From NCBI GenBank assembly GCA_019308925.1, contig JAFDHG010000036.1, positions 1-40,754 on the forward strand: a stretch of DNA of 40,754 nt, given 5' to 3'. Of the stretch, positions 1 through 4,061 are shown in pieces (positions within the stretch are counted from its first letter, which is position 1; every line of letters begins with the position of its first letter). A model generated the notes under the pieces. It searched no databases and had not been told where the DNA came from. It worked only from the letters and a program-made list of their open reading frames with translations. Position numbers and translations under genes: made by a program. The DNA comes from Deltaproteobacteria bacterium. Lineage in GTDB: Bacteria > Desulfobacterota > B13-G15 > RBG-16-54-18.

Positions 1-2402
1 GCTATGATGTCAAAATTACCCACCCTGAATACTGCTCTATTATTTGAAGTATCTACATCCTCTTTCGCATAGACATCTACTACCACTTTCACATGTTTAC
101 TGAACATGAACTCTTTATTGGTTAATTTTTTATAATAAAGTCTTACCAATTTTGTGCTCCCCGCATGGATTGACTCATCTTTGGTGGAAAGAATCTTGGT
201 GATTGCTTCTTTTTTCCCATCTGGACCTGTCTTTATCCATGAAGCGGAAAATCTAATCTTGAAACTAGTATTTTTGTCTCCCCTGTTGTGTACTTTTGCA
301 CCGAGATAGTCGCTTGCTATAAAGCTTTTTTTATTTAAAAAAAGGTCCTTATTTCCAATTACTAAATCAACACCTTTAACCGTTGCCCCTCCTGCAATTG
401 GTTGCTCTTGAGGTATCCCCCTTTCCTTTACCTGAATTCCGATCATCGCGTTATGAAAATCTGTGCTCTCATCCGCCTCCTTTATTTTATTTTCAGGATC
501 AACAATACAATATATATCTGTATAGATATAAGGGGATTTGTGGACAGGCCAAATAATGGATGTTTTTTTGCTTCCTCTTTTTTCAAAATTCATTTTTTTA
601 ATGGCAATTTTTTCGAGTTTTGGCGGTCCTGCCCATTGGCCTGTGTTGTAGTAAAAACCTACTTCTACATCCTTAATAGGTTTGCTGCCCCAGTATTCTA
701 CCTCAGCTTTAATGGTGATACTCTGACCCTCCACATATGAAGTTTGCCGTGGGGAAATAGATAAATTCCTCAAGCTCAACTGGGGAAGCCTCGGCGGGTT
801 TACTTGTATATAGGATGTATTTCGGTTGTTGTTCTCGTTTGTCTCTGTGATTTTATTATTTGGGTCTATTACCTGTTGTACTTCCACCACCCATACGCTG
901 GCCGCAGGCAAGTGATAGGGCCTATTTATGGGAGGGGTGTTGAAGGACAGCTTTTTAGTTTCTCCGCTTTTAAGAGTTGGTATTATTTTCGTTTCTCCCC
1001 ATCCTAATGAGGTTATTTCCACCCTGACTGCCACATTCTCTGCTGTCTGCCTGCGGTTGTATTGCCCTGTTCCCCCTTTGTTTATTACCTTGAAAGAAAT
1101 CTGTGCTGATTCCCCATCTTCTATTTCCATGGAGATAGGCAGTCCGTCAAAAGCAAGATCAGGTGGTGGCGGAGTGTAGGACTTTACCCCGTAAGCTCTG
1201 TATTTTAAAAGATTTCCCCCCTTTTCCAGTCTAACATCTTGAGAGCCTTCCGGTATCCCCATTTGTTGGTAATGTTCCCTCAAATCCTCACCCCAGTCAT
1301 GGTCAAATTCGTAAACTTGGTCATCCGGATCGACATGGACTGTTACATCAACTCTTTCCTGGGGGAAGATAAAATCAATCTCATAATGCCTTCTCTCATT
1401 GGGTTTTAAAGGGGGAACCGATCTATCAAACCTCTGATTAGCTATATCGATTTTTACAGTGCTATTTTGACTTTCAAGTGTTCCTCTATTTTCTATATCA
1501 AATTCTAGTCTTGCCAGTTTTCCAACCTCAGGTTTTGGCGCCTGCCAGGATCGGTCAGAGGTGACCGAACAGTTGCTTATAATGAAATCTGGATATCCAA
1601 GTCCATCTATAAGAAGACTCTCAAGATAGGCAATTATGGCATACATTGCAGAGCCCGTAACAGCACCGCTTGCACCTCCCTGGATATAAATCTTTATCTC
1701 ATTCCACCCCTTTTTGGCATTAAAACCAAAAGAGAGTTTTTCTGTTTTTACGTTTTCAAAAGAGTTTTCTATCTGGTCTACAACTGTTAAAAACTCGTTA
1801 ACCTCTTTAAAGTAATCAAGGAAATCCATAAGTTCAGTAATGGCTTTTATAGTCCTGTATGCTTCTGGCACTTCGACCATAGAAGAGGAGAGTTCCGCTA
1901 TTTCATACGTTTTTTCTGCAATCCACCCGGGTGTTATACCACCTTCCATTTTTTTCTCATGGACTTTTTCGTTATTTACCCGCCATTTGAAAACAAACCC
2001 TGAGCACTCACCTATACCAAAACCGTGTATCCCCCCCATATATCTAATTTTTGCTGTTACTTTAAGGTACATTTTTTTAGGAACATAGAACTTAAACCAT
2101 AGGCCTGCCTGTGATGTAGCCCCCCCAATCCATCCCGTCCCATAAACACCCATAAAGCCTGTGAAAGCGTTTGCCCTAGCAGTGGACTGAGCTATTAGTA
2201 CATCAGCATGGAACTCGCTTGCTCCTCCCATTTCATTATAAGGGGGTTTGAATATCATATGCGGGGATGAAGGGGTTTGCGCTTGTAAAAGGGAAGGGCA
2301 GAAGAAGGAGAAAAATACCTGTATGATTATAATTTCCCTGAAAATTTTTTTACGCCATACATTTATAAACGCCATACCTCTTTCACATAATTTACTTAAC
2401 AT
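1..2402 (-). CDS. Large secreted CARDB-repeat protein, partial (C-terminus beyond window)
   Basis: An open frame of 800 codons runs without a stop from ATG at 2402 to the left edge, so the C-terminus is missing. An alternative ATG at 2375 gives an N-terminus with basic residues (WRKK), a hydrophobic stretch (IIIIQVFFSFF) and a likely signal peptidase I site (LLQA/Q). Residues about 70-200 form a region I do not recognise. About residues 230-800 hold four repeats of roughly 110-130 residues in the style of CARDB (cell-adhesion-related domain in bacteria): each begins with PDL/PDF-like residues and most end near an acidic D-P-x-N-K-I-x-E-x-x-E-x-N-N type motif. The product is probably exported to the surface or periplasm for adhesion or structure. 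It starts 1 nt after the stop of the upstream secreted gene, so it belongs to an operon. Base composition looks AT-richer than the rest of the window. Confidence 0.82.
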   Translation of the reverse strand, partial: MLSKLCERGMAFINVWRKKIFREIIIIQVFFSFFCPSLLQAQTPSSPHMIFKPPYNEMGGASEFHADVLIAQSTARANAFTGFMGVYGTGWIGGATSQAGLWFKFYVPKKMYLKVTAKIRYMGGIHGFGIGECSGFVFKWRVNNEKVHEKKMEGGITPGWIAEKTYEIAELSSSMVEVPEAYRTIKAITELMDFLDYFKEVNEFLTVVDQIENSFENVKTEKLSFGFNAKKGWNEIKIYIQGGASGAVTGSAMYAIIAYLESLLIDGLGYPDFIISNCSVTSDRSWQAPKPEVGKLARLEFDIENRGTLESQNSTVKIDIANQRFDRSVPPLKPNERRHYEIDFIFPQERVDVTVHVDPDDQVYEFDHDWGEDLREHYQQMGIPEGSQDVRLEKGGNLLKYRAYGVKSYTPPPPDLAFDGLPISMEIEDGESAQISFKVINKGGTGQYNRRQTAENVAVRVEITSLGWGETKIIPTLKSGETKKLSFNTPPINRPYHLPAASVWVVEVQQVIDPNNKITETNENNNRNTSYIQVNPPRLPQLSLRNLSISPRQTSYVEGQSITIKAEVEYWGSKPIKDVEVGFYYNTGQWAGPPKLEKIAIKKMNFEKRGSKKTSIIWPVHKSPYIYTDIYCIVDPENKIKEADESTDFHNAMIGIQVKERGIPQEQPIAGGATVKGVDLVIGNKDLFLNKKSFIASDYLGAKVHNRGDKNTSFKIRFSASWIKTGPDGKKEAITKILSTKDESIHAGSTKLVRLYYKKLTNKEFMFSKHVKVVVDVYAKEDVDTSNNRAVFRVGNFDII

Positions 2403-2403
2403 A

Positions 2404-3327
2404 CTAAGGCCCCGTCCCGATACCTAAGATACGGATTTTGTTGTCAATTCCTTTTACTACAGCTACAAAGAAGGTATGTTGTCCTGACCTCATAATTCGT
2501 CTTTCCTCGTGGAGTTTTACTATAAGCCTTACCATATAAGTACGAATTCCCAATGTTTCTTCAGCATCTCCCTTGTTAGCGTCCCCTCTAGCTTCAAGCC
2601 TCCTTACATCAATTATGGTTAAGGTGTCAATATTCTCCTGCGCTTTCACCCATGAGTTATAATCTCTTCTTGGCAGGAATGCGACACCTGATCCGTCAGC
2701 ATCGTAGAGAACGATTTTGCATTGCCCCAACATTTCATAGGCCTTACGGTATTGCTTATTGGCAATAGCTTTATAATATTGGATAATAGCTTCCCTATAC
2801 TCATCTTGTCCTTCATATATTACAAGGTCACTCAGTGCTGATGTCCCTTTTATAGTAAAGTAATTATCGCTTACGTCAAAAATATCTCTATTTTGCGCAT
2901 CATGGATCACTATTCTCATGTTTTCAGCTTTAAGTATACCAAAACCTGTTACGAAGCCAACGGGAATTGTCCAAGAGAACCTTCCCCTTTTGGCATCTAT
3001 TTTACCCCCCTCTCCCAAGTGTCCCTTGTCTTTCCCTCCCATAGCAACTGAAATATATACTTTATCTACTCCACGTGATTTCCACTTTATTTCATATGTT
3101 TTCCCTTCTATCCAAATTTCTCCACCATTTGGGGTGATAAGTTTGATAAAAGGCTTTGCCTCCTTTCTTTCTAATGTCTTGTAATTTTCGATGAAGCTCT
3201 CACTACAGAAGGTTTTCTCTTTGTAGATTTGCCACCTTAAATTGCACCAATTAGTTGATGCCCAAAGGGGTCCACCAATGAGGAAAAATAAGGTGATATT
3301 TATTGTAATTGCTGAAAAAATTTTCAT
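2404..3327 (-). CDS. Secreted protein with Kre9/Knh1-like NGGE domain and C-terminal NTF2-like region
   Basis: 307 residues. Residues 1-24 are a signal peptide (hydrophobic ITLFFLIGGPLWA). Residues about 61-160 match the Ser-Thr-rich GPI-anchor / Kre9-Knh1 type beta-sandwich found in many bacterial surface proteins: the ITPNGGEIW motif is followed by a YEIKWKS strand and ends in a DNYFTIKG strand. Residues about 175-307 start with a YYKAIANKQYRKAYEML helix followed by strands, which suggests an NTF2-like or lipoprotein-type alpha+beta domain; this second assignment is weaker. The start lies 2 nt after the stop of the DUF72 gene, and the stop lies 1 nt before the CARDB gene, so the three genes are probably co-transcribed. 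It may act on the cell surface together with the CARDB protein, but the function is unknown. Confidence 0.75.
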   Translation of the reverse strand: MKIFSAITINITLFFLIGGPLWASTNWCNLRWQIYKEKTFCSESFIENYKTLERKEAKPFIKLITPNGGEIWIEGKTYEIKWKSRGVDKVYISVAMGGKDKGHLGEGGKIDAKRGRFSWTIPVGFVTGFGILKAENMRIVIHDAQNRDIFDVSDNYFTIKGTSALSDLVIYEGQDEYREAIIQYYKAIANKQYRKAYEMLGQCKIVLYDADGSGVAFLPRRDYNSWVKAQENIDTLTIIDVRRLEARGDANKGDAEETLGIRTYMVRLIVKLHEERRIMRSGQHTFFVAVVKGIDNKIRILGIGTGP

Positions 3328-3329
3328 CT

Positions 3330-4061
3330 CTAAAAGTTAATGTAATCCCTTAGCTTTTTAGCGTTATCTATGGCAAATCCAAAGGCATCGTTGTTGAAAT
3401 AGATATAGAGACCCCTTTCCTCCAGCCATCCCCTGATTTTGGATGCCCATTGCCTTAGCTCCTCGTCGGTATAACAGGAGTTTCCCAGGACCTCGCCGCT
3501 GTGGAATCGGAGGTACGTAAAGGGGGCTGTCATATGCTCCCCTCTTGGATAGGCAGGGGAGAGGGGGATGCAAAGAGCAAAACCATGAGAGGTAAGGATG
3601 TCGTAACAATCCTCCTGTAACCAGCTCTCGTGCCTGAACTCAAAGGCATGTCTTGTTTCGGGGTATTCGTCTTTTAACAGGTCGCAGAATTCCACAAGCC
3701 TGCCTTTATTGTACTTGAGATTAGGGGGAAGCTGCCAGAGGACAATGGCCAACTTCTCTCCGAGGCCCGAGGCGTTTTCTTTGTACACCCTTACAGGCTG
3801 GCGGCACTCCCTCATCCTCTTGATATGGGTGATAAACCTGCTCCCCTTGGCAGCAAAGACAAAATCAGCAGGGGTCTTCTTGTACCACCCTTCAAAGGTC
3901 TTCCTGGCGGGGAGGCGATAGAAGGTGACGTTTAACTCCACTGTGTCGAAGTGCTGGCAGTAAAACTCCAGCCAACGAGACTGAGGGAGGTCTGGAGGAT
4001 AGAAGACGCCAGGCCAATGTTTGTAACTATATCCGCTGGTCCCTATAAACAACCTGCCCAT
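3330..4061 (-). CDS. DUF72 (YecE-like) family protein
   Basis: 243 residues, normal length for DUF72. The N-terminus reads IGTSGYSYKHWPGVFYP, followed by WLEFYCQHFDTVELNVTFYRLP. Later come the conserved VLWQLPPNLKYN and FEFRHESW segments, and the C-terminal YIYFNNDAFGFA segment. The fold is a TIM-barrel-like structure; the biochemical role of the family is not settled, although links to nucleic-acid metabolism have been proposed. It is the first gene of a three-gene minus-strand operon with two secreted proteins, an unexpected setting for a cytoplasmic protein. The ATG is preceded by a weak GAGGG about 13 nt upstream. Confidence 0.9.
   Translation of the reverse strand: MGRLFIGTSGYSYKHWPGVFYPPDLPQSRWLEFYCQHFDTVELNVTFYRLPARKTFEGWYKKTPADFVFAAKGSRFITHIKRMRECRQPVRVYKENASGLGEKLAIVLWQLPPNLKYNKGRLVEFCDLLKDEYPETRHAFEFRHESWLQEDCYDILTSHGFALCIPLSPAYPRGEHMTAPFTYLRFHSGEVLGNSCYTDEELRQWASKIRGWLEERGLYIYFNNDAFGFAIDNAKKLRDYINF

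Follow-up and report, generated by a model that had tools for sequence, protein, structure and literature searches.

Three closely spaced genes at the left end of a contig from a deltaproteobacterium raise the question of whether they form one system, and of what kind: a DUF72 gene, a gene for a small protein resembling Kre9 and a large gene with CARDB repeats. The window, meaning the whole stretch of 40,754 nucleotides that was analysed, is the entire contig (C36), one of 120 contigs in a 2.4-Mb genome (G000). All three genes lie on the minus strand and are read leftwards (Table 1). The reading favored here, which is given a little less than an even chance, is that the Kre9-like and CARDB genes encode a secreted binding module of two proteins, and that this module undergoes recombination in place. 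The DUF72 gene is provisionally regarded as a co-transcribed neighbour of this secreted pair.

An earlier note on this DNA described three minus-strand genes 1 to 2 nt apart, and the measured gaps (2 nt between the DUF72 and Kre9-like genes, 1 nt between the Kre9-like and CARDB genes) bear this out. Where the large gene begins is ambiguous: the ATG at 2402 gives the 1-nt gap and an in-frame ATG nine codons on gives a gap of 28 nt. Scans returned 10 promoter-like sites (9.0 expected) and 3 terminator-like sites (6.4 expected). Such sites give no support to an operon, so the claim of one comes down to gene spacing. The large gene runs out of the window with 800 codons, as had been stated, and it also leaves the assembly, the window being the whole contig.

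Table 1. Features at the left end of the contig, with positions in the window
Feature	Position	Strand	Remarks
DUF72 protein	3330..4061	-	243 aa; Pfam PF01904
Tract near-identical to contig C218 of G143	2414..3359	.	approximately the Kre9-like gene alone
Ig-like + NTF2-like (Kre9-like) protein	2404..3327	-	307 aa; N-terminal signal-like hydrophobic stretch
Kre9/KNH-like Ig domain	2839..3159	-	approx. aa 57-163; under Pfam cut-off
NTF2-like domain (predicted)	2410..2817	-	approx. aa 171-306; DUF4829 below cut-off, Foldseek, VIA
Large CARDB-repeat protein	3..2402	-	first 800 aa; PF07705; open at contig start
N-terminal module, jelly-roll-like	1593..2261	-	approx. aa 48-270; no match in G010 or G143
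CARDB repeat 1	1302..1592	-	40.7 bits
CARDB repeat 2	816..1133	-	42.0 bits
CARDB repeat 3	465..755	-	27.5 bits
Presumed fourth Ig-like repeat	3..440	-	unrecognised by Pfam; alignable to the corresponding part of the G010 protein

Gene Order in Related Genomes

Eight genomes of the family were searched (G000, G010, G143, G084, G048, G169, G114 and G239). The assemblies used are 80-99% complete (98.97 for G000 and 80-93% for most relatives), with contig ends falling inside the locus. When gene order was compared, as the earlier note had proposed, the DUF72, Kre9-like and CARDB genes were found together in three of the eight genomes. The note had also considered that the three might never be adjacent in homologues; they are directly adjacent in two of the eight.

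In G010, which represents another genus of the family, a single contig carries the DUF72 gene, then a pair of small genes, then the Kre9-like gene and a CARDB gene of 1,116 aa. Next come a flavodoxin-like gene, one of 153 aa and a series named by eye as MoxR, DUF58 and transglutaminase. The stretch between the DUF72 and Kre9-like genes (L035 9626-11239) holds a gene for a ParE-like toxin and a very AT-rich ORF of 218 aa (GC 0.257). A 59-codon fragment of a conserved CARDB repeat (L035 3644-3844), 64% identical to the main copy, lies displaced downstream, flanked by the 153-aa and flavodoxin-like genes. G010 has other Ig-like genes on contigs C9 and C22, which were considered and set aside as separate loci. 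In G143, which represents a third genus, the DUF72, Kre9-like and CARDB genes follow one another in that order on a contig of 3,278 bases. Genomes G048, G169, G114 and G239 have other genes beside the MoxR-like gene, and G048 has other genes beside the hydrolase gene as well.

Among the four genomes with a DUF72 gene of the window's type, only G010 spans the locus unbroken. Contig ends or runs of N interrupt it in G000, G143 and G084 (window position 1; L038 7411; both ends of L036; L048 near 6895), and these breaks may reflect strain variation or chance.

The remainder of the large gene was sought elsewhere in G000, where a genome search gave five CARDB matches, confined to C36 and a second contig, C67. 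On C67 a frame of 371 aa (G000:C67:11298-12410) enters from the contig end on the matching strand, contains two CARDB repeats and then reaches a stop codon. In an alignment with the G010 protein, C36 covers it as far as residue 728 and C67 takes over from residue 740. No exact overlap of 6 to 200 nt was found between the ends of C67 and C36, so the link between the two contigs depends on the gene order of G010. C67 has the same right-hand series as G010 without the flavodoxin-like gene, namely a 156-aa gene and MoxR-, DUF58- and transglutaminase-like genes (named by eye), and it very probably carries the end of the large gene. From this gene order and the alignment of C36 and C67, the full large protein is taken to be about 1,180 aa long across the two contigs. 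Two TRAP-transporter-like genes (named by eye) lie between the MoxR-like and 156-aa genes of C67 (L038 2599-5646) and are absent from G010.

The DUF72 Gene

The DUF72 protein is a clear member of its family (PF01904; 236.7 bits against a cut-off of 25.3, residues 21-239, profile positions 1-216 of 217) and has a solved relative in TM1631 (1vpq, E 2.5e-28). A DUF72 gene of this type is present in G000, G143, G010 and G084 among the eight family genomes; in G084 the gene is broken by an N run and the secreted module is not visible. It is absent from G169, G114 and G239 and, apart from one weak match to a paralogue, from G048. No DUF72 gene of this type lies beside the hydrolase gene in the stretches covered in G048 and G169, where one would be expected. 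This absence from genomes that lack the secreted module counts against reading the gene as plain chromosomal flank.

The earlier note had placed the DUF72 gene in one set with the other two, and the evidence on that membership is divided. The gene co-occurs with the module in all three family genomes that bear it and is missing from four without it (G084 left out), which fits a three-gene unit better than a two-gene reading. The 2- and 1-nt gaps on a single strand point the same way, as does the 2-nt gap between the DUF72 and Kre9-like genes, which recurs in G143. Against this, the GC3 of the DUF72 gene (0.627) is core-like and its divergence between G000 and G143 is ordinary (508 of 619 nt identical; 126 of 206 at third positions), two genes part it from the secreted pair in G010, and the promoter scans are unsupportive. 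A unit in which the DUF72 protein helps to produce or modify a surface adhesin is considered unlikely.

Base Composition and Apparent Exchange Between Genera

The large gene had been described as AT-richer than its surroundings and therefore as possibly transferred. Measured against a chosen set of 33 window genes (mean GC3 0.616, s.d. 0.051), the 800 codons on C36 are indeed low, with a GC3 of 0.375 (z -4.7), as is the Kre9-like gene (0.364, z -4.9). On C67 the GC3 of the large gene is 0.26-0.40 in the first 150 codons and 0.54-0.80 over codons 151-350. The Kre9-like gene of G143 is as low as that of G000 (0.359). The Kre9-like gene of G010 is not AT-rich (0.539, with flanking genes at 0.481). 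The CARDB gene of G010 has a GC3 of 0.24-0.38 over codons 351-550 versus about 0.60 at its end, so a share of the low GC3 may be intrinsic to the gene and not come from a donor.

Further evidence for transfer comes from the comparison with G143. The Kre9-like genes of G000 and G143 are identical at 915 of 927 nt, and at 297 of 300 third positions in the last 900 nt, with an exact run of 499 nt at 2414-2912; elsewhere, within a stretch of 3,809 nt, the two principal matches between the genomes are 81 and 82% identical. The near-identical tract starts near the end of the DUF72 gene (3359) and stops at the stop codon of the Kre9-like gene (2414), and the DNA beyond cannot be aligned. Given the assemblies, these sequence comparisons show a very recent, gene-sized exchange of the Kre9-like gene between genera. 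The suggestion of gene transfer is thereby upheld, by low GC3 together with a near-identical Kre9-like gene in another genus.

The large gene behaves differently. Its start is non-homologous in G000 and G143, and local alignment of the two proteins finds one 65-aa stretch at 37%. A search of 59 relatives with the whole G000 protein gave no match to the G143 protein; it matched three genomes, namely G000 itself, G010 and, weakly, G034. The G143 and G010 proteins agree at 0.70-0.80 per 30-aa block over the first 330 aa and at 0.20-0.50 thereafter. The G000 protein is 0.43 identical to that of G010 over aa 424-800, and its N-terminal part is different. The part on C67 agrees with G010 at 0.37-0.63 over its first 150 aa, at 0.87-0.93 over the next 120 and at 0.67-0.83 over the last 100, and the closing two CARDB repeats are conserved between G000 and G010, the only genomes in which they are visible. 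The possibility that a second tract was exchanged between these genomes within the closing repeats was considered and rejected: third-position identity is just 0.40-0.67 despite protein identity of 0.87-0.93, so slow evolution suffices. At the sequence level these alignments show the large protein to be a patchwork whose N-terminal and middle parts differ between relatives.

The same patchwork would result if reads of two co-occurring relatives had been joined via a shared stretch during assembly. The assemblies are of the metagenome type, the 499-nt exact run is common to G000 and G143, contigs end inside the locus in both genomes and a run of N interrupts the DUF72 gene of G084; one false join could still have exchanged two large genes between bins. 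Swapping the Kre9-like gene alone, however, needs two false joins, one of them without shared homology. The reading frames are intact and the low GC3 spans the Kre9-like gene and extends into the next gene, and an assembly artefact is accordingly thought improbable. The set occurs in only three genomes, which leaves few events behind the case for recombination in place.

Domains of the Two Putatively Secreted Proteins

Both proteins carry N-terminal hydrophobic, export-like segments, in agreement with the earlier proposal that the two products are secreted, which they putatively are. For the small protein, the description as a Kre9-like secreted protein survives with a weakened name. With the Kre9_KNH profile (PF10342) the whole protein scores 15.0 bits and the isolated domain 17.9, both below the cut-off of 24.6, and the counterparts in G010 and G143 score 15.8 and 13.4 bits. 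Membership of the Kre9 family was therefore dropped, and the protein is Kre9-like at best. Over the Ig domain it can be aligned with a G205 protein at 43%.

The C-terminal half of the small protein is predicted to have an NTF2-like fold. The isolated domain scores 16.6 bits with DUF4829 (PF16111), under the cut-off of 25.5. The predicted model of the whole protein is poor (mean pLDDT 39.8), with the C-terminal domain as its one usable part; at that whole-model confidence, the domain matches 3hx8 in Foldseek (E 5e-4). In VIA it matches 7sjy_B, the S1C-NTF2 part of RsgI9, with a Z of 11.7 (rmsd 2.9, 107 residues aligned), matches within 1 Z being tied.

A protein search found the combination of the two domains in 3 of 297 genomes drawn from the phylum, with any match at all in 15; in the other 12 the match is confined to residues 19-173. 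A profile search likewise found the two-domain protein in 3 of 395 genomes (any match in 14). All three carriers are among the eight family genomes searched. A search of the species-genome collection gave one record. A gene borne by viruses or plasmids was considered and discarded, with no Kre9-like relative in viral contigs (57 pattern-matching stretches, none confirmed), plasmids or phages.

The large protein had been credited with four CARDB-like repeats. Three stretches on C36 score above the CARDB cut-off of 22.7 bits (PF07705; 102.7 bits in total); the presumed fourth, at 3-440 in the window, had no Pfam match even with E allowed up to 10. Ahead of the repeats is a module that no Pfam family matches above its cut-off and that went unmatched in the other genomes of the family. 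In G206 and G157 (2 of 394 other genomes), PLAT-domain proteins have a similar region, 21-22% identical, behind the PLAT domain. These two proteins sit in another family of the phylum (L080 916-2151; L081 1012-2955). The module was modelled from a three-row alignment (A3), a broader alignment (A2) having mixed unrelated parts and been set aside. In VIA and Foldseek searches the model, with a mean pLDDT of 62.8, showed similarity to the MAM part of meprin (Z 9.8), to carbohydrate-binding modules 15 and 35 (9.2 and 8.9), to Eph ligand-binding domains and to the adhesin domains of gingipains. The VIA scores span Z 8.2-9.8 among the 50 matches listed, and a list so flat suggests the general fold alone. 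The model thus suggests a jelly-roll-like fold, jelly roll being used here as a name for what the listed folds share.

The earlier idea of a surface adhesion or matrix system is in keeping with the export-like N-termini and the CARDB repeats. An adhesion role is plausible. At the C-terminus on C67, no hydrophobic segment was found and no sorting domain or anchor was recognised by eye. With no surface anchor found, the NTF2-like and CARDB proteins might instead be periplasmic ligand sensors or assembly factors and not adhesins, and the top structural match of the NTF2-like domain is a part of RsgI9 (within the tie noted above). A similar fold says nothing of function, though; there is no transmembrane segment past the N-terminal one and no signalling partner was seen in the locus. 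A role in envelope sensing is given a small chance.

Proposed Mechanism

In the favored reading, a two-gene module would lie between a hydrolase/phosphoribosyltransferase side (C36) and a side with the 156-aa, MoxR-, DUF58- and transglutaminase-like genes (C67). Its small protein would consist of Ig-like and NTF2-like domains and its large protein of an N-terminal jelly-roll-like module followed by CARDB Ig-like repeats, and both would be exported. The N-terminal module might form a tip for binding a ligand outside the cell, perhaps a glycan. The CARDB repeats would then act as a stalk, with the conserved last two of them perhaps attaching it to the cell or a partner, and the small protein may help in binding or assembly. 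If the exchange is real, this is a defined spot with swappable extracellular modules, and it leads to the question of what selects new binding specificities in uncultured bacteria. If not, it is one more secreted CARDB protein without a known partner.

Relation to Known Systems

A recombining Ig/CARDB module has been described in archaea, in the VARTIG loci of Thermococcales (PMC8416519). In the available text of that source, these loci are defined by a large arCOG07710 protein whose C-terminal Ig domain is hypervariable, together with smaller Ig genes. The present locus is similar in having a large secreted CARDB-like Ig protein beside a smaller Ig protein at a spot shaped by inter-species exchange. 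It differs in being bacterial, in varying on the N-terminal side with a constant end, in lacking a shuffled downstream gene set, going by the same text, and in being known from three examples. The last two repeats, where that definition places hypervariability, are the conserved part here (in two genomes). That the locus is a bacterial VARTIG counterpart of opposite polarity is doubtful. In such a counterpart, a constant C-terminal pair of CARDB repeats would acquire N-terminal binding modules and an exchangeable NTF2-Ig partner by recombination between genera, giving lineage-specific recognition.

A conflict or self/non-self recognition module diversified by recombination, as at VARTIG loci, could be seen in the CARDB Ig repeats, the replaced modules, the near-identical exchange across genera and the displaced CARDB fragment of G010, but is very unlikely: no toxin or immunity domain was seen, the constant end is opposite to the variable C-terminal Ig domain of VARTIG as described in the available text, and there are three examples only. 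A defence system was also rejected, the three proteins having no PADLOC match at E up to 0.01.

CARDB proteins are among the putative adhesins of syntrophic sulfate reducers of the phylum Desulfobacterota (PMC10553843); a comparable gene pair or mosaic was not found in the available text of that source. The earlier note knew of no described system with this set of genes, and a narrow literature search agrees in that no publication was found naming both Kre9 and CARDB. The parts themselves are familiar and no categorically new system was seen. The large protein is like other CARDB-repeat proteins (PF07705) in its three above-cut-off repeats on C36 and two on C67; it differs in an unnamed N-terminal module that varies between relatives and in one presumed repeat that is not recognised. 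The small protein is like the NTF2-like domains of DUF4829 (PF16111) and of the S1C-NTF2 part of RsgI9 (7sjy) in its predicted fold. It differs from them in scoring under the DUF4829 cut-off and in having its NTF2-like part joined to a Kre9-like Ig domain.
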